Position numbers and translations under genes: made by a program. The notes under the pieces are model-generated. The model did no database searches. It saw only the letters and a program-made list of their open reading frames with translations, and was not told the DNA's origin. From IMG/VR virus record IMGVR_UViG_3300036792_000226, positions 1 through 50,512 of that record: a stretch of 50,512 nucleotides of DNA. One strand, given 5' to 3'. Below, piece by piece: positions 24,651-47,561 of the stretch; position 1 is the stretch's first letter, and every line of letters starts with the position of its first letter. The DNA comes from a virus.

Positions 24651-25634
24651 TTAGTTGACGTTGTAATAGCTATCGTTCATGCGCGGCGAGATGCACGAAA
24701 CCTGCCAGGTCACATACAGGTTCGACACCAAAACGCGCTGGTTCGACGGCTGGATAAATGGGTCGCAGACAAAGTAATCGCCCTTATGCCACACCGGGAA
24801 AATGTACTTGCTATTCAGCAGGTAGCTCTTGCCGGTGGGAACGAACGGATCCGGGAAAACCAAGGCGGTGTTGAAAATGAAATGGCTTCTGAAACCTGCC
24901 TGCATCGCGCCGTCATCCTGGATGTTGTTCGTGTACCGGATGAGCTGCGTGAAATTGTTCTGGAAGTTGTAGAAGCTCTGCACCGGCATGGCCATGATGT
25001 CCGGCAGGTCATAGCCGAACTGCCCGGTCAGGCCAAAGCCCTGGTTCGCCACCGCCGCGGTGAGCGCGGTCGAGCCGGCGTTGATGGGAGCCTGCGCCTT
25101 GAACCAGCTGTTCGCCGCCACGCTGCGATCAATGCCAGCAATGACGTTGTTCTGCTGGTACACCCAGGAGTCGATGTCATCCACGTCCTGCGAAGTGTTC
25201 TGCGGCGCAATGTGGAACATGGCGCGCGAGAGCTTCATCAGGATGGATCCGGTGGCCTCGACCCATTTGGTGTTGATGATGCTGAGCGCAGAGTTGCGGT
25301 TCAACACGATATCCGTCACCGGGATGGCTACATTCTGGTAGTACGGCTTCCACCGCTGGTCAAGCGGCTGCACGGTGTCGACAACCGTGGGAGTGAGCAG
25401 CTCGGTGCCGTAGTACGCACCGCCGGCCAGATTTTCCTGATACATCGCCGGATAGATCAGCTCGCCCATGCCGAACTTTTTCCCTTGGCGCTGCATCGCC
25501 CAGAACATGATGGACGGTTGAAATACGTTGTCAGCGATAACCGGATAAATGTACTTCTCCGTGATCGCGTTCATGGTCCCCACTAGGGCGGCGGTGGGGG
25601 AGTTGATTCCGGTTCCGATTGCGCCGAATGCCAT
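24651..25634 (-). CDS. major capsid protein
   Basis: 327 residues with an AAAAGGA box. Sequence ATEKYIYPVIADNVFQPSIMFWAMQRQG and a central IPVTDIVLNRNSALSIINTKWVE then MKLSRAMFHI are the hallmarks of a small HK97-fold coat protein of short-tailed phages. Placed directly after a scaffold-like gene and before the adaptor. About the right length (300-350) with no obvious N-terminal delta domain. Confidence 0.8.
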   Translation of the reverse strand: MAFGAIGTGINSPTAALVGTMNAITEKYIYPVIADNVFQPSIMFWAMQRQGKKFGMGELIYPAMYQENLAGGAYYGTELLTPTVVDTVQPLDQRWKPYYQNVAIPVTDIVLNRNSALSIINTKWVEATGSILMKLSRAMFHIAPQNTSQDVDDIDSWVYQQNNVIAGIDRSVAANSWFKAQAPINAGSTALTAAVANQGFGLTGQFGYDLPDIMAMPVQSFYNFQNNFTQLIRYTNNIQDDGAMQAGFRSHFIFNTALVFPDPFVPTGKSYLLNSKYIFPVWHKGDYFVCDPFIQPSNQRVLVSNLYVTWQVSCISPRMNDSYYNVN

Positions 25635-28311: not shown

Positions 28312-29820
28312 TTATTGAAGGCGGTCTACTACTACATCCAGGCCGTATTGCGGCGTGCCTGTTACGCCAGAGAAATTAACTGCGTATGTAAGATTTGATC
28401 CCGCAGCTATATGCGTCGTAGTTATCGCATTTGACTGATTTGTAGCAGTTAGTCCTACTGCGCCCGGACCTAATCCCGGTGATGACGTTCCATTGGGACA
28501 AGTGAACACAACCTGCGCTGTTCCTGCTGTACCTATTGCTTGTACCCATATCATTGCAGATATGCGATACGTGCCTGCTGGTGCAGACGCTACTAGGTTG
28601 GTCGTAGTAATAGCTGCCGTTTGTCCTGTCAGGGAGATCTTCGCAACATTACAGGGATACTGTGCGCATCCGCTCTGTAGGCCGGGACCGGTGATCGTAT
28701 AAGGCGTTTGAATCCCCGTCGCAGATGCAGGAAAGAAAAACTGCGGCGTGCTGTAGTTGCCCTCATAAGTGGCCAGCGTCGCGCTGATGGCATGAGCCAG
28801 CATCCCGTACCCGGGATTGATCAGATGTTCAGTGTCGCCGCTGTAATAGAACGTCGTATCGTAGTTATTCGGCAGAAACAGCGCGGTGTCGATCAGTCGA
28901 TTCCATACCGAAGACTGCGAGCGGATCCAGGTGTTTACCTGCTGCCACACCGTCTCCTGCGCAGCCGTGAACGGCGCCGGCAGGATCGTCTCTGGAATCA
29001 GTACCCAGCCGTCCTGAATTGCAAACTGATAATACTGAGTTAGTAGCGATTCGATGGTCGCAGCCGATGAGTTGCTCACGTTGATATCGTTCACGCCCAT
29101 CATGACGAAGAGATAGCCTGGCTTGCCGGTCACTGCCGGCGAGAGCGGGTGAACGCTCCCGAAGTAATCGTTCAGGTTAAGCTGGATCGTCCAGCCCGCC
29201 ACGCCTAAGTTGTAACCAGTACCGTGACTTTTGAAATTCGGCAGCGTCATCAGCTGCGCGGGATAGTCGGCATTGTTGAAAGAGCAAGTGGTGCCCGATG
29301 GAATCGCCTGCCAGGTATTCAGGCTTAGCGTTACTGTAGTTCCGGAAAGGCCGCTGACCATCGAGCCTGGCTGCGTTCCTACGCACGTCACGAACTGGCC
29401 GACTTGAACGTTCGTCGCAGATGCAATGGTGAGCGTAGGGCTGTTGTTCGCCGCGGATCCCGTGGTGATCGCCGCATAGCCGGTGGAGGGAGTCACCTGC
29501 GGATGACCTGGAACATTGCCCGTGCTGGACTGCAGGCCGCCGGTCAATGAGTCGCCGACAAACACAAAGTTTGCACCCTGGACGCCGGCGCCGGGATTGC
29601 ACGGCGTCCACGGCCCGGTGGGCGGATTCACTTCGCAGTACATGCCGGCGGGCGGCGGAATGAAGCTGACCGCGCCCAAGCCGGATCCTGCCGTCCACGG
29701 ATTCCAATTGACTCCATCCGCGCTCGCATACGCGCCGACCGGCGGTGGCGTGAAATTCTGCGCCGCGGCGAAGGGCGCCAACAGCAGGAGTGAACACAGT
29801 AGTCCAGCGAGTCTCTTCAC
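28312..29820 (-). CDS. secreted SGNH/GDSL-type esterase
   Basis: 502 residues with a Sec signal peptide (MKRLAGLLCSLLLLAPFAAAQ). The catalytic blocks are easy to see: GDSL at 89-92 (Ser91), a Gly in GYNLGVAGW (201-209), GVND at 241-244 (Asn243) and D-T-E-H at 328-331 (Asp328, His331). This is a complete SGNH set, so carbohydrate or lipid de-esterification (for instance deacetylation of polysaccharide) is expected. A beta-rich C-terminal domain (about 380-502) may bind sugar. An insertion (about 100-185) separates block I from II. Together with the spike it is one of two large exported proteins. Confidence 0.8.
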   Translation of the reverse strand: MKRLAGLLCSLLLLAPFAAAQNFTPPPVGAYASADGVNWNPWTAGSGLGAVSFIPPPAGMYCEVNPPTGPWTPCNPGAGVQGANFVFVGDSLTGGLQSSTGNVPGHPQVTPSTGYAAITTGSAANNSPTLTIASATNVQVGQFVTCVGTQPGSMVSGLSGTTVTLSLNTWQAIPSGTTCSFNNADYPAQLMTLPNFKSHGTGYNLGVAGWTIQLNLNDYFGSVHPLSPAVTGKPGYLFVMMGVNDINVSNSSAATIESLLTQYYQFAIQDGWVLIPETILPAPFTAAQETVWQQVNTWIRSQSSVWNRLIDTALFLPNNYDTTFYYSGDTEHLINPGYGMLAHAISATLATYEGNYSTPQFFFPASATGIQTPYTITGPGLQSGCAQYPCNVAKISLTGQTAAITTTNLVASAPAGTYRISAMIWVQAIGTAGTAQVVFTCPNGTSSPGLGPGAVGLTATNQSNAITTTHIAAGSNLTYAVNFSGVTGTPQYGLDVVVDRLQ

Positions 29821-30585: not shown

Positions 30586-31100
30586 TGCTTTGTCTCTACG
30601 CTCTGCTGCTGTGAGTCGGTGCGTTCCCATGCTTGTGGCCTCGCAAGATTTTTTATCTGCGCGAATATCTCGCCGGCGCTGTTGTGGACCGTCACCAGCT
30701 CATCCTGGATGTACTTGTGTTCGAGGATCGGCACGCCCCAGGCGCGGTACCGTCGCCAGTTTGGATCTTGCGTGATCGCACTCACCGCGGCGTGGCTCAA
30801 AATCCAGTCGTACTGCCGCGGGCTCAGCATCGCCGCGGCGTCGCCCAGCTCGCAGCCGGAGTCCCGCGCGGCATTCATGCCCTGCACCCATGCCATCAGT
30901 AGCATCTGGCCCGTCAGGCAGCTACCGTTGGCGTCGATGATCGCGATCCGCGCGTGCGCTGTCTCAGTCATCACCAAATCCGCCTTTTTTATCTGCACCC
31001 TTTGGAACCGCCGGCCGCTTCGCACCCATCCGTGGAGATGGCCCAGCCAATACAGTGCAGCTCCCACGCAAATCATCGTTAAAACGCATTTTGTTGTCAT
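30582..31100 (-). CDS. membrane-anchored hypothetical protein
   Basis: 172 residues from ATG at 31100. One N-terminal membrane helix (TMICVGAALYWLGHLHGW, about residues 8-25) followed by basic sequence and a soluble domain with ARIAIIDANGSCLTGQMLL and QYDWILSHAAVSAI. A start at 30971 would give a soluble form. The frame also stays open to 31253, into the structured region, without support. Its 5' end lies opposite the proposed start of the plus-strand RNA. Confidence 0.55.
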   Translation of the reverse strand: MTTKCVLTMICVGAALYWLGHLHGWVRSGRRFQRVQIKKADLVMTETAHARIAIIDANGSCLTGQMLLMAWVQGMNAARDSGCELGDAAAMLSPRQYDWILSHAAVSAITQDPNWRRYRAWGVPILEHKYIQDELVTVHNSAGEIFAQIKNLARPQAWERTDSQQQSVETKQ

Positions 31101-31199
31101 AGCCCCGGTCCCTGGCGCAACATGACGCAATTTCCAGCGTTTTCGCTTTTTTTTTGCTTCCCTACTAAACCATGCTTTTTCAGCCCTGTAGACGCACGA

Positions 31200-32120
31200 G
31201 GGGCATCCCCCCCAGGGGATACAGAGGTTCCCGTTGTTGTAAGCTGAGAGCAATTGCGTCGCGTCCCCCTTGGTGTGTGGCGGGGTGAAGTGGAGCGGGC
31301 AAACTCTACTTCGGTACTTCAGCCTCTCAGCTCATCACGGTTGACCTCTGTACCCCACCTTTTTTGGGTGGGTCTTGCACTACACGCTGTCAGCACCTCG
31401 CTTTGGGCTCCGAGACGCGGTGATTGGTAATAAAAAAACCAAAAAAACCGCGCGTTTTGGAGCCTCGGGCATTTCAGAGCGGCCGTCGCTAGTACAAGCT
31501 TTTTTTAGCCTTGCGGCTTCCCTCCCCGTAGGGATTGGACCAGGACGCTGTGCCCCTCGGTGTGCGATCCACTACGCACCTCGTTGCCTGGAAAACCTGC
31601 GTAGGTTCTTAACGCAGGAAGCTCTTTGCTCTCTCGGCAGTTGACGCCAACCTAATGGCGCCCCGTGCCTACTGGTGCCCCGCCCCCGGACGCTTCCGCG
31701 CCGATGACCGGATACCTGCCGGGTCCATTCCCCCCTAGTCCCAGACCATGAAACGCGCCGGAGAAGCCGCGGCCACACATCGGGATTTCGATTCAATGGA
31801 CTCTACTCTGGACCCGCCAGTTCTATGTCCCGGCGGGCTGCCTGTTTTCACCGTTTTTTTCCGGTCCGTGCTCGAGCTTTAACCTTGCGGGCCGATCTCG
31901 AGAAATACTCGAGTCCGGTACGATCACGGGCAGGGTGGAGGTATCCACTCTGCAAGCTGGTGGCGATGCAACCGTGTCTTGCAGTCGGGAGCCATGTTTT
32001 GCTAGGCTCTACCGCAGACAGAGGGTGCTGACTCGCTGACCCGGATTAGCCTCCTTTCTCCTGGCAAGGGCAAAGTCTCAGAACTGGCCGCTGTGGTTCT
32101 TAACCACACGCGGCCTTTTC
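31200..32120 (+). ncRNA. putative giant structured RNA (about 0.9 kb, GOLLD/ROOL-like in character)
   Basis: Between the membrane-protein gene and the HTH gene no credible ORF exists on either strand, but perfect stems follow one another. Main helices seen by eye: 31215-31228 with 31344-31356 (13 bp, one bulge) enclosing 31242-31250/31324-31332 and 31287-31295/31304-31312; 31406-31411/31459-31464 enclosing 31416-31421/31447-31452 and 31424-31428/31438-31442; 31540-31544/31587-31591 enclosing 31562-31566/31575-31579; 31596-31602/31612-31618; 31706-31711/31719-31725; 31813-31818/31832-31837; 31864-31870/31925-31931 enclosing 31897-31902/31908-31913; 31933-31939/31944-31950; 31950-31956/31978-31984; 31988-31993/32005-32010. 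Five of the stems contain or are extended by G-U pairs that work only in the plus-strand RNA. It ends at a strong plus-strand terminator. Size, phage location and nested long-range pairing recall GOLLD and ROOL RNAs; identity with either class is not established. Confidence 0.6.
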
Positions 32121-32244
32121 TAGTTCTATACACGGATATGCCAACCTCTTCCAGTAGTCCATCGTGAATGAGTTGGTACACCCGCTGCGGAGACTTACCC
32201 AGGAAAGCAGCAAAATCGCTCACGCTCATCAGGACGATAATCAT
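32002..32244 (-). CDS. helix-turn-helix DNA-binding protein (MerR/excisionase-like)
   Basis: 80 residues from ATG at 32244 (ATGA overlap with the gene before). SVSDFAAFLGKSPQRVYQLI is a helix-turn-helix (helix 2 DFAAFLG, helix 3 SPQRVYQLI) of the type found in excisionases and small MerR-like proteins, followed by a wing (GISVYRTRKGRVWLR). The C-terminal 30 residues are Ser/Pro/Arg-rich. Its last third lies opposite the plus-strand terminator, and its stop lies inside the proposed structured RNA. A regulator of the late operon or of the RNA is possible. Confidence 0.7.
   Translation of the reverse strand: MIIVLMSVSDFAAFLGKSPQRVYQLIHDGLLEEVGISVYRTRKGRVWLRTTAASSETLPLPGERRLIRVSESAPSVCGRA
32086..32119 (+). 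terminator. plus-strand intrinsic terminator of the structured RNA
   Basis: GGCCGCTGTGGTT (32086-32098) pairs with AACCACA-C-GCGGCC (32102-32115): 13 pairs, one bulged C, a three-base loop, then TTTTCTAGTTCT. On the minus strand there is no T-run, so the signal is directional. No plus-strand protein gene exists upstream that would need it, which supports a plus-strand RNA. Confidence 0.85.
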
Positions 32245-32462
32245 GCCGCCAGGCCTCCTGAGAGCCAAAATCGTTCAACGCTGGATGAAAGAAAAACCGC
32301 GTCAGATAAGGACGCGGCGCATGTTCGCGCACTCACCAGGTCCGCCGCCGGCTCATCGCCCGCGAGGAAGGTTGCAAACACCTGGTCCTGTGCGCTGACC
32401 ACAAAATGTGTTCGTCCGGCGGCCGGCTGACAATCCACAACCGCTGAACCAAAGGGTGTCAT
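32241..32462 (-). CDS. small hypothetical protein after the portal
   Basis: 73 residues, coupled by ATGA at both ends. Sequence FGSAVVDCQPAAGRTHFVVSAQDQVFATFLAG is beta-like, the rest Ala/Ser-rich. Function unknown. Confidence 0.55.
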   Translation of the reverse strand: MTPFGSAVVDCQPAAGRTHFVVSAQDQVFATFLAGDEPAADLVSARTCAASLSDAVFLSSSVERFWLSGGLAA

Positions 32463-34123
32463 TTCTTCCCTTTCGGGTCGCTGACAGAAGCCACAGCTTT
32501 CAGTGCCAGCTCTTGCTGGATGCGCTCGCCGATCTCGGCCGCGTTCGGATATCCCAAGATGGCCAGGCCTTCGCCAATCGGCATGGCACCTTTGCCCATC
32601 AATCCCTCGGCGATCCGCGCCACAATCGCTTGGCTCTTGACGTGGAAGCTGCCGTCATCTATACCCATCAACAGCTCGTCGACGCTTTCATCCGGCTTCT
32701 TGAAATCGACGATCTCAAATTTTCCACGGATGGTGCGCAGCGGCATCTTCTGTGCCGGCATGTACTCCACCATCGCGTAGGCAATGCACTTCGCCAACTC
32801 CAGGACACTCGCCGAGGCCAGGCGCCCGCGGAGCTGCGTCATGCCCTGGCCGCGGAGGACTGCCGCGTCAAACAACTCCGGCGATAGGTTGCCATCACCC
32901 GGGTTGCCCTGCCGCGCCTGGGTGAATCCGTGGATGTCGCGCTGCTTCTGCAGCAGGGTTTCCGGGATCTTGGTCGAGCTATCGGGGAACGCCGGCGGCG
33001 TCACGCAATTGGGCGGCTTCTCGCCCTTGTACGTCTGCTTCTCACCCGGCACGCCACCGAACTGGTTCTGGTTGATCTCGGCCGTTTCCGGGATGAACCA
33101 GATGCCGTTATTCAGGCGCCAGAAATTCTCGTAGGTCTGCGCGTAAAACTTCTCCGCCAGGCTTTGCAGGTTTTGCGTGTAGCGGGTCGGCGGCACTGCC
33201 CACGGTCCAAACAGCGGCGGCGTCCCCCACACCGGCACCAGGTTGAATCTTCCCTGCGGCCAGGGGATCTGGCCATCCGCGATAATCACGTTTTCGCATT
33301 CCACCAACATGCGGCCGTTGGGATAGTCCCACTTGTATTTGGCCGGCGAGCTCGGCGACGTCGATGGGATGAGCGATCGCGTGTAGTCCTTGCATAAGCA
33401 CCAGCGCACGCGCGTGGCGTATCCGCGCGGCGTCGATACCGCATCGAGCGCCGGCATAGATTGAAACGGTCCCGGTGGCAAAACAAAACCGTTGCCGCCG
33501 TCCGGTGCGCGGAGATCGCGCGTCGCGGTTCCGGGATACCGCGGGAGTTTGTGCGCCGACTCGGGGAAGCGCGCTTTCACCTCGTCCAGGTGGATCCAAT
33601 CTTCCAGGATGATCCAGCTCCAGTTGAGCGTGTAATCGGTGTTCGGGTCCATGCTCACCGTGCGCGGGTCGCGGCACTTGGTCCACATGCGGCCGAGTCC
33701 GTTGTTGGCGCGCGGGTCGATGCCCACCTGGAGAAAAGCGGTTCCGGCGAACTGTGCGAGGAGAAACGCATACAGCAAGTGATAAGGCACAAACATCTGG
33801 CCCCACTGCGAGCTGAAGGCCTTCTCTATCTCATCCAGTCGTGCTGATTTTTTCTGACTGTAGATGTACGCCTGCGGTTGAAACTCGGAAAGGTCATTCG
33901 CTTCACGCATCATGAGCACTTGCAGCTCGGGGATGCTGATACTCGGCCGATAGCGCGGTGAAGGCGCGCTCTGGCCCATCTCAAAGAATGCTTTTACATC
34001 GTCGAAGTAGTTGACGCCCAGCGCGTCCTCTTGCTTGGCCTTCGAGATCCGCTGCCACTCGTCCATGTGACGGATGCGCGGATCTATGTCCGGCGCACTG
34101 CGGCGAGCGGTGAGGACGATCAT
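32459..34123 (-). CDS. portal protein
   Basis: 554 residues. Features that fit portal proteins of short-tailed phages: an N-terminal helix (DEWQRISKAKQEDALGVNYFDDVKAFF), a block with PELQVLMMREANDLSEFQPQAYIY, the stem/clip region FVPYHLLYAFLLAQFAGTAFLQVG, a RDPRTVSMDPNTDYTLNWSWI beta domain, and C-terminal helices with GMTQLRGRLASAS and a Lys-rich end. Located downstream of the terminase in the usual order terminase - portal - scaffold - capsid. It would form the dodecameric DNA gate and docking point for the packaging motor. Confidence 0.8.
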   Translation of the reverse strand: MIVLTARRSAPDIDPRIRHMDEWQRISKAKQEDALGVNYFDDVKAFFEMGQSAPSPRYRPSISIPELQVLMMREANDLSEFQPQAYIYSQKKSARLDEIEKAFSSQWGQMFVPYHLLYAFLLAQFAGTAFLQVGIDPRANNGLGRMWTKCRDPRTVSMDPNTDYTLNWSWIILEDWIHLDEVKARFPESAHKLPRYPGTATRDLRAPDGGNGFVLPPGPFQSMPALDAVSTPRGYATRVRWCLCKDYTRSLIPSTSPSSPAKYKWDYPNGRMLVECENVIIADGQIPWPQGRFNLVPVWGTPPLFGPWAVPPTRYTQNLQSLAEKFYAQTYENFWRLNNGIWFIPETAEINQNQFGGVPGEKQTYKGEKPPNCVTPPAFPDSSTKIPETLLQKQRDIHGFTQARQGNPGDGNLSPELFDAAVLRGQGMTQLRGRLASASVLELAKCIAYAMVEYMPAQKMPLRTIRGKFEIVDFKKPDESVDELLMGIDDGSFHVKSQAIVARIAEGLMGKGAMPIGEGLAILGYPNAAEIGERIQQELALKAVASVSDPKGKK

Positions 34124-34445: not shown

Positions 34446-35276
34446 CTACGCTTGGCTTTCCACTCGCGCGGCCGCTGCCGCTTCCTCCTGCGCTATCTCG
34501 TGATCCTTCTTCAGCAACCGGTTCTGGATGTCCGAGAGGCTCACTTCCTTCGCATCCTGCGGACTCGACCCCACCTGGAACGGAAACACTTTCTCCGGCC
34601 CCTGCTTCGCCGGCATCTCCACGATCCGGTTCGGCTGCGGACTCTGCGGCTCTGGCTGCGGCTGCGCGCCATCCCCGCTGGCCGCGGGGGATAGGCCCTG
34701 CTGGCGCCAGCTCTCGACGATATTCAACGCTTCCTGTCGTCGCTGCTCCGCTTCGTCCACGGGCGGGAGTGGCGGCGGACTGTACTGCGTCGCGAGTGAG
34801 AGCGGCTGATTTGCGCCTGGCTGGGGCGCCAGGATGGCCTGCTGGTGCGGATTTGGTTGAGCCCATGCCGTCGCCTCGGGGGATCGGATGATGCCGCTCT
34901 GCCGGCTGACAACAAACACCTCAAGTGCCTTGTTGTCGAGCGAAAGAGCGAAGCAAATGTTATGGCGCTCATCGTCCGCGGCGTCCAGGTCCGCTTGCGA
35001 GAGTGTCACCTTGCCGTTCTCGCGCATCAGCAGCACGAGCAACAGCTCGAAGTTCATCTTGGGGATATTCGCGATGATCGCGGGATCAATTTCCAGGTCC
35101 GGTGGTGGCTCGCGCCGGGGCCGCGGCCCGTACTTACGCGGGGAAGCCCGCTTTTGCGGGGGTTGGTCGGGTGATATCACAGTGCTATCACTCTGCAACA
35201 GAGAAGGTTGTTCTGTGTTTTCTGTGTGTGAGGTAACTGCGGGCCGCTTACTACTTTGCTTCTTAGCCTTGGCCAC
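34446..35276 (-). CDS. hypothetical protein between terminase and portal
   Basis: 276 residues from a GTG at 35276 with AGGGAG in front, overlapping the terminase stop. Lys/Pro/Arg-rich start, a compact helical segment (MNFELLLVLLMRENGKVTLSQADLD, about 75-100) with a strand pair (RHNICFALSLDNKALEVFVVSRQ), a long Gln/Pro-rich linker and a charged helical end (LLKKDHEIAQEEAAAAARV). A pair of the 35.2-50.5 kb operator palindromes lies in its 5' coding part. Function unknown; perhaps a packaging accessory. Confidence 0.6.
   Translation of the reverse strand: MAKAKKQSSKRPAVTSHTENTEQPSLLQSDSTVISPDQPPQKRASPRKYGPRPRREPPPDLEIDPAIIANIPKMNFELLLVLLMRENGKVTLSQADLDAADDERHNICFALSLDNKALEVFVVSRQSGIIRSPEATAWAQPNPHQQAILAPQPGANQPLSLATQYSPPPLPPVDEAEQRRQEALNIVESWRQQGLSPAASGDGAQPQPEPQSPQPNRIVEMPAKQGPEKVFPFQVGSSPQDAKEVSLSDIQNRLLKKDHEIAQEEAAAAARVESQA
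35171..35192. promoter_or_regulatory. operator pair 1 (GTGATATCAC and AGTGCTATCACT)
   Basis: Perfect palindrome at 35171-35180 followed directly by a second imperfect one at 35181-35192. Located inside the coding sequence of the 34446 gene near its 5' end. Leftmost member of a family of nine clusters. Confidence 0.6.
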
Positions 35277-37008
35277 TCGCCAACTCCCTAGCACGCATCC
35301 GTTCTTCAGGGGTGCGTAATCGCATGGCCACTATACCCGATAGAGTCACGAAAGGACTCTTTTGGTGTGGAAACCTCGCGAGCCCGTCTTCAAAACTGCC
35401 ATCATCTTGGGTACCAGAGTAACTACTACAGGGGGTGGGGTGCCACTGGTCCTTGGCGATCCATCCCACCAGTCCGGCGTACAGGATTTCATCGAAATTC
35501 GATATGGCCTCAAAGCGGAAACCACCCTCCCATTGGGCGGCACTCATCTGGTCCGCAAACTCCTGATCCGAAACGATTACCTCGCCACGGCGCAGGCAGG
35601 TTTGGAACGTCGTGAGCATGTTCGCGCGGCTGTAATCGTTGAGCGTGAAACCCAGGCTTTTACTGCTCTGTTCCATATTTACCTTATCGTTACGTCCCTT
35701 CCAGCGATATTGATTGTGGTAGCGCCAGCGGTCGCGTAGCTCCTGAAAGATCCTGGAGCTGTATCCGCCGCTCCCGTCCTCGCAGGCGATCTTTGCCTGG
35801 TTGTAATACTTGCCCAGCTTGTACATCTGCTCGCTGGCCTTTTCGAGCCTCAGCACATCGTGGTAGCGCGCGGCCTGTTTGCCCGTCTCTCCGTTCCACA
35901 CCACGGCGGCCAGCGTGTCATCCCAGGCCGATGGGTCCGGGTCCTGGCGGTCGCCGTGGCCCACCATCACGCCGATGAAGTAGTGCGCAGCGGGGTCCGG
36001 TTTCTCAAACATCGCAATGCGGCCGTTGCGGTCATCGAGCGCGCGCACACTCTTTTCGCCGTCCGTGCTCATCTCCAGCTCGATCAAATGAAAGTTCGTG
36101 AGCGCGCGGCTCTGCTTTTTCGCGATGTTCAAATCCTCGAAGTTGAAAACGGGATCTCCGGAGACGCTGAACGCCTCTTCAGGATCGCTCGGATAGTCGC
36201 GCCGCCACTTGTCCAGGTCGCTGCCGCACTTCGAGTGGAGTGTCTCGCGGAAAAATGCGATGCGCTCGCGCGGCAATTTGAGATCCCGCATCAGGTACTT
36301 TTCGTAGTCGTCACGCGGCGCATCTTTCACGCGCGAGGGATGGCGCACGTAATCCGGGTCTTCATGCCAGGGGAGAAAAATCGGCAGAAATTCCGTGTCG
36401 CCGCGCACCGTCGCTTCCCACAGCTCGTAGTAGGCCTGGCCCGGTCCCTCCTTGCCGTTCGGCGTGGTTTCAATCACGCCCATGTTCTCCGGGTCATCGG
36501 AGAGGGTGGAGAGCACCGCGGGGAACACGTCCGGGTTCTGGTAGTACGCGGCCTCGGATGCGTGTAGGAACGTGAACCCCAAACCGCGCGTGCCCACCAC
36601 GTTGCCGGCCGTCTGGTAGGTCGCGCTGGAATGGATGTTCCAAAAGTTGATCCCTGCCTGGGTGTACTTCCAGGAGTCTTTTCTCAGCGGGAGTTGCTTG
36701 ACGTCTTTGTGAAAGTCTTCGTACAGTGCGCGCGCGGTGGGCTTCTGCTGCGCCATAATCAGGCCTTCGGCATACTCTTTCTCGATCAGGTGCGCGAGCA
36801 TGAGCCGGCGCGTCCAGGTGGAGACGCCCAGCCGGCGGCCTTTGAGAAAGATGATGAACAGGCGGCGCTTTTTCTTGGTATGCGCGCGGCATTGGTCCAT
36901 GATCCGCCGTTGCGATGGATTCAGACGGAACGGCACCGGCCGGTTGGTCTGCCGGTTCTTCACCGTGAGCCGCTCGAAGAATTGCTCAGCTCTGTTGAGG
37001 TCGAGCAT
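35263..37008 (-). CDS. terminase large subunit
   Basis: 581 residues. ATPase: LKGRRLGVST (about 55-64) is a deviant Walker A typical of TerL, FTFLHASEAA (145-154) is Walker B with catalytic Glu152, and a coupling motif ETTPNGKEG follows near 185. Nuclease: RNase H-like core with AHYFIGVMVGHGDRQDPD (about 340-358), AKIACEDGSGGY (about 405-416) and a C-terminal Asp/Glu-rich strand. It cuts and pumps DNA into the procapsid through the portal. Starts inside the preceding small gene. Confidence 0.85.
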   Translation of the reverse strand: MLDLNRAEQFFERLTVKNRQTNRPVPFRLNPSQRRIMDQCRAHTKKKRRLFIIFLKGRRLGVSTWTRRLMLAHLIEKEYAEGLIMAQQKPTARALYEDFHKDVKQLPLRKDSWKYTQAGINFWNIHSSATYQTAGNVVGTRGLGFTFLHASEAAYYQNPDVFPAVLSTLSDDPENMGVIETTPNGKEGPGQAYYELWEATVRGDTEFLPIFLPWHEDPDYVRHPSRVKDAPRDDYEKYLMRDLKLPRERIAFFRETLHSKCGSDLDKWRRDYPSDPEEAFSVSGDPVFNFEDLNIAKKQSRALTNFHLIELEMSTDGEKSVRALDDRNGRIAMFEKPDPAAHYFIGVMVGHGDRQDPDPSAWDDTLAAVVWNGETGKQAARYHDVLRLEKASEQMYKLGKYYNQAKIACEDGSGGYSSRIFQELRDRWRYHNQYRWKGRNDKVNMEQSSKSLGFTLNDYSRANMLTTFQTCLRRGEVIVSDQEFADQMSAAQWEGGFRFEAISNFDEILYAGLVGWIAKDQWHPTPCSSYSGTQDDGSFEDGLARFPHQKSPFVTLSGIVAMRLRTPEERMRARELASGQG

Positions 37009-43504: not shown

Positions 43505-43725
43505 GCTCCCTCGACCGGTCCCCACTGATAGCTCTCGTCCATCTTGCGGCCGCCGGCCTGCTCCAGCGCAAAGTTGAGCGTGCGGATGCGCTCCTGAAAT
43601 CGCACGCGCGCCGGACATCCCGAACTGTCCGTGTCGCAGCGATTTATTTCGCTGTGCTTCTCAAATTCAACCCAGGTGTGGCGCAGCTCGGCGTGCAGGG
43701 TGCGGCGCAGATGTTCGAGGGTCAT
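43501..43725 (-). CDS. small helical protein
   Basis: 74 residues, mainly helical (LEHLRRTLHAELRHTWVEFEKH) with two Cys (CDTDSSGC) in the middle and a strong helix (VRFQERIRTLNFALEQAG). Starts inside the HerA stop (ATGA). Confidence 0.55.
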   Translation of the reverse strand: MTLEHLRRTLHAELRHTWVEFEKHSEINRCDTDSSGCPARVRFQERIRTLNFALEQAGGRKMDESYQWGPVEGA

Positions 43726-45428
43726 CGCATCACGTCCGGTGTGAAGACGAACGGATTTGCCTTCACCTTGCCGTCGCCCCCAAGCTCGATGAGCTCCATT
43801 CCGCGCAAGGCGCTCATGTGCTCGCGATATGCCGATGAATTAACGCTCTGCTCGGAGGCTTCCGCGAGCCACTCCCGCGTCACCCACTCGCCACGCTTGG
43901 TGTTGGCCAGGGCCAGCATGATGCGATAGCGCGCCGGCTTAAACAGCTTCTCGAATGAGGCCAGCAAATCCGCCTGGCTGATGCGGCGCGCCGGAAACCG
44001 GCGCGCCAGTTCTCTGCCGGCTGCGGTGAGCCCAATTTCGCCAGGCACGGGATAACCGATGAGGCCGGCCTGCTCCAGTCGGCTGATGTGCTTGCGATAG
44101 TCGCTGCTCAAAGGGCTGATGCGCGCGGCCACCGCCAGCCAGGTCCGCGAGAGCGAAGCAAAGCCGGTGTCCTCGGCCGAGATGAGCGCGGCCAACAGCT
44201 TGTTCTGCGCGCGCTCCTCCGGCGTCTCGCGCGCCTCTTCCGCGGCCTTTGCTTTGGTGCCGTTGCTGGTCGAGGCTCGAATTGTGCCCGCGACGTCTGG
44301 GTGTTCGCGCTGGAAAGATTCAAGATTGTACGGCTCCGGCGATAGCACAGTGATAGCAGGCACAGTGATATCACTCTGCAATCCAGCCTCTTTGCGGAGC
44401 TGCTCCAGCGTATCCAGGGCAGACTGGACAACCGGGCTCATTGCGGCCGCGAAACACCGGAGCGACTCTATCGCTACATCGCGCAAGTGAGTGGCCTTCG
44501 CCAATTCGGTGCGAAGCGCCTGCAATTCCCCGCTGCTCGCGGAGCTGCTCGCGCCGGCCAGCTCCTTCGCTTCGCTGGCCAGGTTGGAGAGCAGCGGCAG
44601 GAAAGCCTTGATCTCCGCCGGCGCCGCGGGCTGCTGGATGTCCTGGAGATCGCCAGGCCGGAGATGCGTAGTCCGCGCCTCGATGGGACGCAGCAACGTC
44701 CGATCCGGAGAGATCGCAATTCCCTGCCCGTAAAAGGTGTGATCCTTGAGCACCTTGATTTCGTGATAGAAGGCGGCGCGCTCTTGCTTGCGCGTGGACA
44801 CGCCCAGCGTCTTCGCCGCGCGCTCCTGGTCGTTGGTCAGGGTGACGCGGCCCACCAGATAGTTCTGCATTTCGCTCGCGCAATTGTTCGCCAGCTTGGA
44901 AAGCCGTTGCGTGGCGAGGGTCACAAAGATGCCCCGCTTGCGGCCGCGTGAACACAGGTTCTTCATCGCGGTGAGCGCCTCGGAGACGCCCTCGCCCTTC
45001 TCCGGAGCCCACAGGTGCGCCTCATCCACCAAGCACGCAATAGGACTCCACAGCTCGCGCGGCGCAGACATCAGCGAATCGAGAAACAGGCGCATCCAGC
45101 GGTGCTGATCTTCCACGTCCAGGCCGGAGAGATCGAAGATGGCGGAGCGGCGCCATTCCAGCATCTTGCGCGCCAGCACCGCGGCCGTGCCTACCGACAT
45201 CGGCGCGTCGCCATTCTCGCCAAACAACAGGAACGGGAACTTCTTACGCAGCGTGAAATACTCCCCTTCCACGTCGAAGATCCACACCGGCATAACCGGC
45301 ACCAGTTCTTCAGCCAGGCAGCGGAGACGGTAGCTCTTGCCAGAGCCGGACACGCCGGTGATGAGTAGGTGGGTGCGGCGGAGAGCATCGGTATCAACCG
45401 GAAAGCTCTTGCCCATGAGGATGTTCAT
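43722..45428 (-). CDS. HerA/FtsK-like ATPase with C-terminal winged-helix domains
   Basis: 568 residues. Residues about 17-35 (THLLITGVSGSGKSYRLR) give a Walker A G-x4-GK-S/T, about 130-138 (IACLVDEAH) is Walker B with the Glu, and LVTLATQRL ... ASEMQNYLVGRV matches the sensor and arginine-finger zone of HerA/DUF87 ATPases. A coiled coil (about 310-345) follows, then two winged-helix-like units (about 420-460 and 510-550) for DNA contact. It could be a DNA translocase in replication, recombination or packaging. Its coding sequence contains operator-like palindromes near 44341-44374. First gene of the early minus-strand operon. Confidence 0.7.
   Translation of the reverse strand: MNILMGKSFPVDTDALRRTHLLITGVSGSGKSYRLRCLAEELVPVMPVWIFDVEGEYFTLRKKFPFLLFGENGDAPMSVGTAAVLARKMLEWRRSAIFDLSGLDVEDQHRWMRLFLDSLMSAPRELWSPIACLVDEAHLWAPEKGEGVSEALTAMKNLCSRGRKRGIFVTLATQRLSKLANNCASEMQNYLVGRVTLTNDQERAAKTLGVSTRKQERAAFYHEIKVLKDHTFYGQGIAISPDRTLLRPIEARTTHLRPGDLQDIQQPAAPAEIKAFLPLLSNLASEAKELAGASSSASSGELQALRTELAKATHLRDVAIESLRCFAAAMSPVVQSALDTLEQLRKEAGLQSDITVPAITVLSPEPYNLESFQREHPDVAGTIRASTSNGTKAKAAEEARETPEERAQNKLLAALISAEDTGFASLSRTWLAVAARISPLSSDYRKHISRLEQAGLIGYPVPGEIGLTAAGRELARRFPARRISQADLLASFEKLFKPARYRIMLALANTKRGEWVTREWLAEASEQSVNSSAYREHMSALRGMELIELGGDGKVKANPFVFTPDVMR
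44341..44374. promoter_or_regulatory. operator cluster 4 (inside the HerA gene)
   Basis: GATAGCAC at 44341, GTGATAGCAG at 44350 and GTGATATCAC at 44365-44374, evenly spaced. It lies in the coding part for a variable linker. Confidence 0.55.
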
Positions 45429-46655: not shown

Positions 46656-47561
46656 ATGGGCGACCGATCCCGTATCGAAAGCGTGGATGCGAGCTGGAAC
46701 CCTACCTATGGGTGTTCGGCCGTAAGTAGTGGGTGCCGCAACTGTTACGCCCGGCGTATTGCTGCCAAGTCAGCAAAGCAGGGACAAGTGTACTACGGCA
46801 TCGCGAAGTATAGCCCGCTGGGGGCGCCGCGATGGACCGGCCGCCTGGTCCACGCCACGGAGAAAACCTTCGAGCCGCTCCGCTGGCAGGATAGCCGCAT
46901 GATCGCGGTGGATACCATGTCGGACCTGTTCCACGAGCGCATCCCGGACGCCTGGCGCGATGAGGCCTATGGGGTGATGGCGCTCTGTGGACAGCACACC
47001 TTCCAGGTGCTCACCAAGCGGCCGCAGGTGATGGAGCGGTATTTCTCCGCGCCGGAGATCTGGAGCCGAATTGAGGCGGAAGCCCGCCGCATCTATCGGG
47101 ACCGCCACGGCAAGCCCTATCCCAGCGACGGGCACCTGCAGGGGCCGCTGCCAAACGTGTGGCATGGCGTCTCGGTAGAGAATCAATCCGCGGCCAACTT
47201 CCGGGTGCCTGTGCTTCTTAAAGTGCCCTCTGCGCGTCATTACGTGGCCGCTGAGCCTCTCCTGGCACCGATCCGGCTATCCCACTGGCTTGGCGACGCC
47301 GGCGTGAGCTGGGTGGTTGTCTCCGGCGAGGGAGGACCGGAGGCCAGGCCTTGTGATGTGAAATGGATTGGCTCGCTGATAGAGCAGGGAAAAGCCGCCG
47401 GCGTGCCGATCTTCGTTAAGCAGCTCGGGACTGCAACCAACGTCTATGGGGCCACTCACGAAACCGGACATTCACCCACAGACACACGGACTCGCCGCGC
47501 CTCGGATATGGAAGAGTGGCCGGAAGCAATCCGGGTGCGAGAGATGCCGGATGCCGCTTAA
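46656..47561 (+). CDS. phage Gp37/Gp68 family protein (DUF5131)
   Basis: 301 residues starting MGDRSRIESVDASWNPTYGC. The hallmark S-x-GC-R-N-CYA (about residues 25-32) and the conserved LTKRP, W-x-GVSVE and SGEGGPEARP blocks define the mycobacteriophage gp37/gp68 family, whose Cys cluster and barrel strands suggest a radical-SAM-like enzyme. Substrate unknown, possibly a nucleic-acid modification. Positioned just upstream of ParA. Confidence 0.8.
   Translation: MGDRSRIESVDASWNPTYGCSAVSSGCRNCYARRIAAKSAKQGQVYYGIAKYSPLGAPRWTGRLVHATEKTFEPLRWQDSRMIAVDTMSDLFHERIPDAWRDEAYGVMALCGQHTFQVLTKRPQVMERYFSAPEIWSRIEAEARRIYRDRHGKPYPSDGHLQGPLPNVWHGVSVENQSAANFRVPVLLKVPSARHYVAAEPLLAPIRLSHWLGDAGVSWVVVSGEGGPEARPCDVKWIGSLIEQGKAAGVPIFVKQLGTATNVYGATHETGHSPTDTRTRRASDMEEWPEAIRVREMPDAA

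Follow-up and report, generated by a model that had tools for sequence, protein, structure and literature searches.

The locus considered here raises the question of whether it holds a large structured phage RNA and, if so, on which strand. The window, a virus record of 50.5 kb that represents a soil phage genome, carries its late region on the minus strand, with the large terminase (35263-37008), the portal, a small winged-helix ORF and the major head protein (24651-25634). The structured region of about 0.93 kb (31.19-32.13 kb) separates the winged-helix ORF from the following gene on the minus strand, whose start is near 31.1 kb. Elsewhere in the window we observed a 502-aa GDSL-lipase-like ORF (28312-29820, minus; PF13472) among the structural genes, a 568-aa HerA/FtsK-like ATPase ORF (43722-45428, minus) that carries the PHROG label 'terminase large subunit' despite the separate large terminase, and, on the strand opposite to the late genes, a 301-aa protein (46656-47561, plus) with a very strong match to DUF5131/phrog_2045.

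Relatives of the locus were identified by a portal search (L003, L002 and L004, with 91%, 84% and 57% portal identity respectively), by way of a conserved stretch of the portal (L010, L015, L016 and L017) and by a head-protein search (L024 and L025). The whole region is carried by L003 and L002, at 74-86% nucleotide identity and with many indels, and in L010, L024, L015/L016 and L004 the corresponding slot holds a structured gap of about 0.3-0.75 kb that does not code for protein. This slot, shared by eight loci including the window, is bounded by the small winged-helix gene, which adjoins the portal gene, and by a variable downstream gene that differs and is non-homologous among the groups of relatives. 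The element therein measures about 0.3-1 kb across relatives, compared with about 0.93 kb in the window, and its fold in L004 is weak (z -1.8). In L017, whose portal is 39% identical, the slot has no such gap. The genome L025 encodes a head protein 82% identical to that of the window, and the 21 kb of it examined include neither a portal nor a winged-helix relative, indicating a different gene order. Searches of phage and plasmid collections for similar DNA gave chance matches or none, no portal relatives were found among named phages, and bacterial genomes yielded one distant portal match only, in Paenibacillus.

Coding does not account for the region. The earlier note on this DNA had described about 0.9 kb without a credible gene, which is correct for 31.19-32.00 kb, where we found no credible or conserved ORF and where indels in L003 and L002 break every frame, but not for the 3′ 120 nt, which overlap the conserved winged-helix ORF. 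No ORF extending over the region is kept in the relatives. We found no tRNA genes in the window with ARAGORN, and neither strand showed a convincing promoter at the ends expected for the region. Just outside it, an 18-base stretch, TTTTCGCTTTTTTTTTGC, at 31137-31157 is shared without change by the window, L003 and L002; read on the minus strand, it could form Lys/Arg codons of the following gene in L003, and it precedes the start codon in L002.

The region folds far beyond expectation from shuffled DNA, with minimum free energies of -388 kcal/mol (z -7.1) for the plus strand and -401 kcal/mol (z -5.4) for the minus strand, and 0 of 20 shuffles was as good in either case. The dense packing of stems described previously is real, and the main stems listed at that time exist (Table 1). 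The helix reported as 13 bp comprises 13 Watson-Crick pairs when 31215-31218 and 31220-31228 are joined to 31344-31356 around one bulged A, and 12 pairs plus one A.C when it is read in register. The three-tier stem proposed for 31405-31465 is likewise present. Conserved A7 tracts in the loop of this stem (31430-31446) and a T7 tract just after it (31500-31507) could pair as a pseudoknot.

Table 1. Features of the region and its neighbours, in positions of the window (a dot marks features given without a strand).
Feature	Position	Strand	Evidence or remark
Conserved structured non-coding region	31190..32125	.	Fold z; consensus-fold z against shuffled alignments; alignments A1/A9
Long-range helix, 5′ arm	31197..31205	.	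Pairs with 31551-31559 (CGAGGGGCA/TGCCCCTCG); nearly invariant in three sequences
Domain closed by 31215-31228/31344-31356	31215..31356	.	Nested stems 31236-31250/31324-31338 and 31287-31295/31304-31312; compensatory changes in L003, L002
Three-tier stem with A7 apical tracts	31400..31470	.	Compensatory changes; wobbles favour plus
Hairpin AGCC-GCAA-GGCT (minus sense)	31507..31518	-	L003 GCCC-GAAA-GGGC, L002 GCCC-GAGA-GGGC: covarying stem, GNRA loop kept on minus
Long-range helix, 3′ arm	31551..31559	.	Pairs with 31197-31205
Hairpin CCTGCGT..ACGCAGG	31596..31618	.	L003 has CCTGCGC..GCGCAGG
Hairpin CCCGCC..GGCGGG	31813..31837	.	L003 and L002 have CTCGCC..GGCGAG
Short hairpin, GCAA loop on minus	31883..31890	-	GAAA in L002
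88-nt core	31955..32040	-	Common to L010 only among distant relatives; alignment A8: 20 pairs, 3 changed on both sides
Small winged-helix (excisionase/TerS-like) ORF adjoining the region	32002..32244	-	HTH_17 just below cut-off; phrog_57 terminase small subunit, E 4e-5; alignment A3
Terminator-like GGCCGC..GCGGCC hairpin, then TTTTC	32086..32119	+	Found at each of the eight loci; lies within the 3′ part of the winged-helix coding sequence
Terminator-like hairpin GCCGCGT..ACGCGG, then TTTTTC	32296..32318	-	Lies upstream of the winged-helix gene; L003 has it too
Portal protein	32459..34123	-	phrog_156, E 1e-5; anchor for finding relatives

Comparison of the relatives indicates that this structure is maintained rather than eroded by random mutation. 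When the three-way alignment was scanned in 150-column windows, many windows between 31.17 and 32.2 kb reached z scores of -3 to -5.7, compared with values near 0 in the portal and large-terminase coding sequence, and over the 5 kb scanned the signal was limited to the region except for a further peak at 32.28-32.43 kb that corresponds to the minus-direction hairpin of Table 1. Against locally column-shuffled alignments, the consensus energy of the whole region in three sequences gave z -7.0 on the plus and -11.7 on the minus strand, and the three sequence pairs gave -5.4 to -10.1. Values of -8.6 and -9.1 were obtained for L015/L016, and alignment A9 gave about -8.8 (plus) and -8.3 (minus) as taken from printed means. 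Twenty of the 116 pairs predicted on both strands carry compensatory change, an example being AGCC/GGCT to GCCC/GGGC. Compensatory pairs numbered 23 on the plus strand or 19 on the minus strand, compared with 12 expected after shuffling, the minus-strand excess being modest (19 versus 11.8, sd 3.6). Because the full-length alignment consists of three sequences only, significance of R-scape grade is out of reach. The structure is nevertheless kept in L003 and L002, with consensus z scores of about -7 to -12, and the region thus has the property of large structured phage non-coding RNAs, a non-coding sequence whose structure is conserved by compensatory change.

Among the more distant relatives, L010 shares the 88-nt core, which in minus-strand sense consists of a closing stem (UGUCUGCG..AAGACA) and a GAGC..GCUC hairpin. 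In the core alignment that includes L010, 97.5% of cells are paired, compared with 30-44% when the arms are slid. The score of model R2 for L010, 76.9 bits, is high by construction, since the model was trained with L010 included. The motif covers the last winged-helix codons (SVCGRA*) in the window, L003 and L002, whereas the L010 ORF stops earlier and the motif persists, from which it follows that the core is not kept for the protein. Homology of the window-type RNA to the regions of L024 and L015/L016/L004 is proposed from position and hairpin rather than from sequence; model R2 does not find these regions, and model R1 (3′ domain, plus strand) reaches the hairpin part alone in L010 and L016. 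A further short sequence, CCTCCTTTCT at 32047-32060, resembles the 16S rRNA 3′ end on the plus strand and a Shine-Dalgarno sequence on the minus strand, and recurs in L003, L002 and L010, with a similar one in L015/L016. We dropped it as a functional motif because it is not followed by a start codon on the minus strand and is able to base-pair within the 3′ domain.

Conserved secondary structure, the lack of conserved coding, the same slot in eight loci, plasticity of size and the absence of an Rfam match are each directly supported, and on these grounds we consider it probable that a large structured phage RNA of a new class is encoded here and acts as RNA rather than as message. Two versions of this proposal differ in strand, and since the indicators conflict we give them roughly equal weight; transcripts may also arise from both strands. 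In one version, which we hold tentatively and rate at somewhat under an even chance, a giant antisense RNA would be made from the plus strand, with its own promoter near 31.14-31.19 kb and an intrinsic terminator at 32086-32119 opposite the end of the winged-helix gene. In the other, to which we assign a similarly qualified likelihood, the RNA would be read from the minus strand in the sense of the late operon and either freed by processing or left in the mRNA, and only if freed does it count as a version of the proposed RNA class.

The plus strand is favoured by the hairpin at 32086-32119, which in 8 of 8 loci is followed on that strand by at least four T in eight bases. The earlier note had called this a strong terminator. 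A GC-rich hairpin with TTTTC does exist and recurs in all relatives, but the tract is short (only ATTTC in L002, a point against a plus-strand terminator) and the hairpin was not called by a terminator scan. Its T-run coincides with Lys/Asn/Arg codons. In the window the tract is encoded with two AGA codons, a codon seldom used by the genome (7 of 187 Arg codons), which counts in favour of the plus strand. The GCGGCC arm is read as T-A-A-S in the window and T-C-G-L in L015, and it falls in another codon frame in L015 and L004. The hairpin is therefore kept for the nucleic acid and is not explained by protein conservation, and its conserved plus orientation with a T-run argues against an RNA from the minus strand, at whose 3′ end no terminator was seen. 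Also consistent with a plus-strand transcript are the wobbles of the three-tier stem, mostly G-U on plus, and the minus-direction hairpin at 32296-32318, which lies inside a 73-aa ORF between the portal and winged-helix genes and would isolate the unit. The promoter that this transcript calls for was not found in our scan.

Tetraloops point to the minus strand. In Watson-Crick-only ensembles, GNRA loops numbered 7.0 on the minus and 1.0 on the plus strand, of 25.7, and the same method assigned 8.4 such loops to the true strand of E. coli 16S/23S rRNA and 0 to the opposite one. As several of the seven are homologous to one another, they amount to two independent hairpins in the window group plus at least one in L024. 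The two hairpins keep GNRA loops on the minus strand in the window, L003 and L002 despite base changes (GCAA/GAAA/GAGA and GCAA/GCAA/GAAA), and on that strand one pair of the core is G-C in L010 and G.U in the other three sequences. In the window group, wobble-type pairs next to strand-robust helices likewise favour minus (43 versus 26 on plus), but those of L015/L016 favour plus (12 versus 4), as does the single GNRA loop of L010. Consensus energies were better on the minus strand in all five alignments of one set and about equal in another (A9). The previous assertion that wobble pairs are G-U exclusively in plus-strand RNA is contradicted by the counts, which were 105 G.U and 88 A.C in strand-neutral stems of the eight loci and 5 and 7 in strand-robust pairs. 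The antisense orientation claimed previously is thus no more than a candidate; the terminator-like hairpin speaks for it, and the GNRA loops and the half-changes at the core wobble speak for the opposite strand. Two further tests, both made on Watson-Crick-only folds, were set aside. A count of 1x1 G.U versus A.C mismatches initially gave 7 versus 17, but was dropped because E. coli rRNA fails the same test and because ensemble sampling removed most of the excess; loop base composition was dropped as the A/T skew of unpaired bases follows overall composition and the strand bias of the late operon.

The structure might instead serve in cis within the late mRNA, as an attenuator, stability element or insulator between the packaging and head modules. 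The constant intergenic slot, the strong variation in length and the failure to find a promoter all fit this explanation, but a leader of 0.9 kb would be very long and the downstream gene is non-homologous between relatives; on balance we judge it unlikely. Less probable still is a site acting as DNA, such as a cos/pac packaging or replication site whose inverted repeats lie beside a TerS-like gene, since the weak match of the neighbouring protein to terminase small subunits (phrog_57) and the near balance of G-T and A-C mismatches in strand-robust helices are offset by a multi-branched nested fold with GNRA loops and long-range helices typical of RNA, and by relatives of that protein that match excisionases or regulators.

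If the region does encode a large structured RNA, we suggest that it would be made during late infection and would function in trans in the form of a folded RNA or RNP scaffold. Action in trans is favoured over a leader for a single gene because the next gene changes while the element stays with the portal and winged-helix genes. A plus-strand transcript would end at about 32119, at the conserved hairpin and T-run, and a minus-strand RNA would be co-oriented with the late transcript and perhaps processed from it. As the winged-helix protein is excisionase-like and only weakly small-terminase-like, a link of the RNA to packaging is a possibility only. In a bolder form of this idea, which seems to us quite improbable, a giant RNA encoded beside the portal and TerS-like genes would act with them in packaging DNA or assembling heads, as a much larger, unrelated counterpart of the phi29 pRNA, and each strand might give a functional transcript.

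We compared the element with known RNA families. At the gathering threshold of Rfam release 15 there was no match in the window or in seven relatives, and at E<=10 over 30900-32400 only chance-level matches of microRNA type and similar were obtained, none of them to GOLLD, ROOL, OLE or HEARO. Given this absence of a family match, we do not assign the element to any of these four classes, of which the earlier note had considered GOLLD and ROOL as possible homes, and regard this conserved, structured stretch of about 0.93 kb, large and non-coding, as a candidate for a new class. No paper describing it was found, as judged by titles and abstracts in a literature of which the subscription part was only partly covered. 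OLE and HEARO are likewise large structured RNAs, of bacteria, and membership in either was ruled out by the absent match. The phi29 pRNA is about 174 nt long. Like the present element it is encoded near packaging genes, a likeness by analogy only, but its structure is unrelated, and membership was rejected on the basis of size (about 0.93 kb) and the lack of an Rfam match.

The closest comparison is with GOLLD and ROOL, RNAs of phages and prophages that are often found near tRNA islands and whose functions are still unsolved (PMC12286853). With ROOL the element shares its nature as a large structured phage RNA without a protein product, but it is larger than the 659-nt ROOL solved in that study. 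In GOLLD the 3′ region is conserved and the 5′ region variable (PMC12286853), and the element resembles it in being phage-encoded, over 800 nt in length and extensively helical, with one conserved and one variable region. It differs from both in having neither an Rfam match nor a tRNA in the window, and from GOLLD in its location in the packaging/head region. Assembly into a homo-oligomeric nanocage is a further property of GOLLD. Very few phage RNAs of such size and complexity are known. The natural size variants of about 0.3-1 kb would help to find a minimal functional core, and a distinct class located elsewhere in the genome than GOLLD and ROOL, with relatives over this size range, would show that large ornate RNAs have originated repeatedly in phages.
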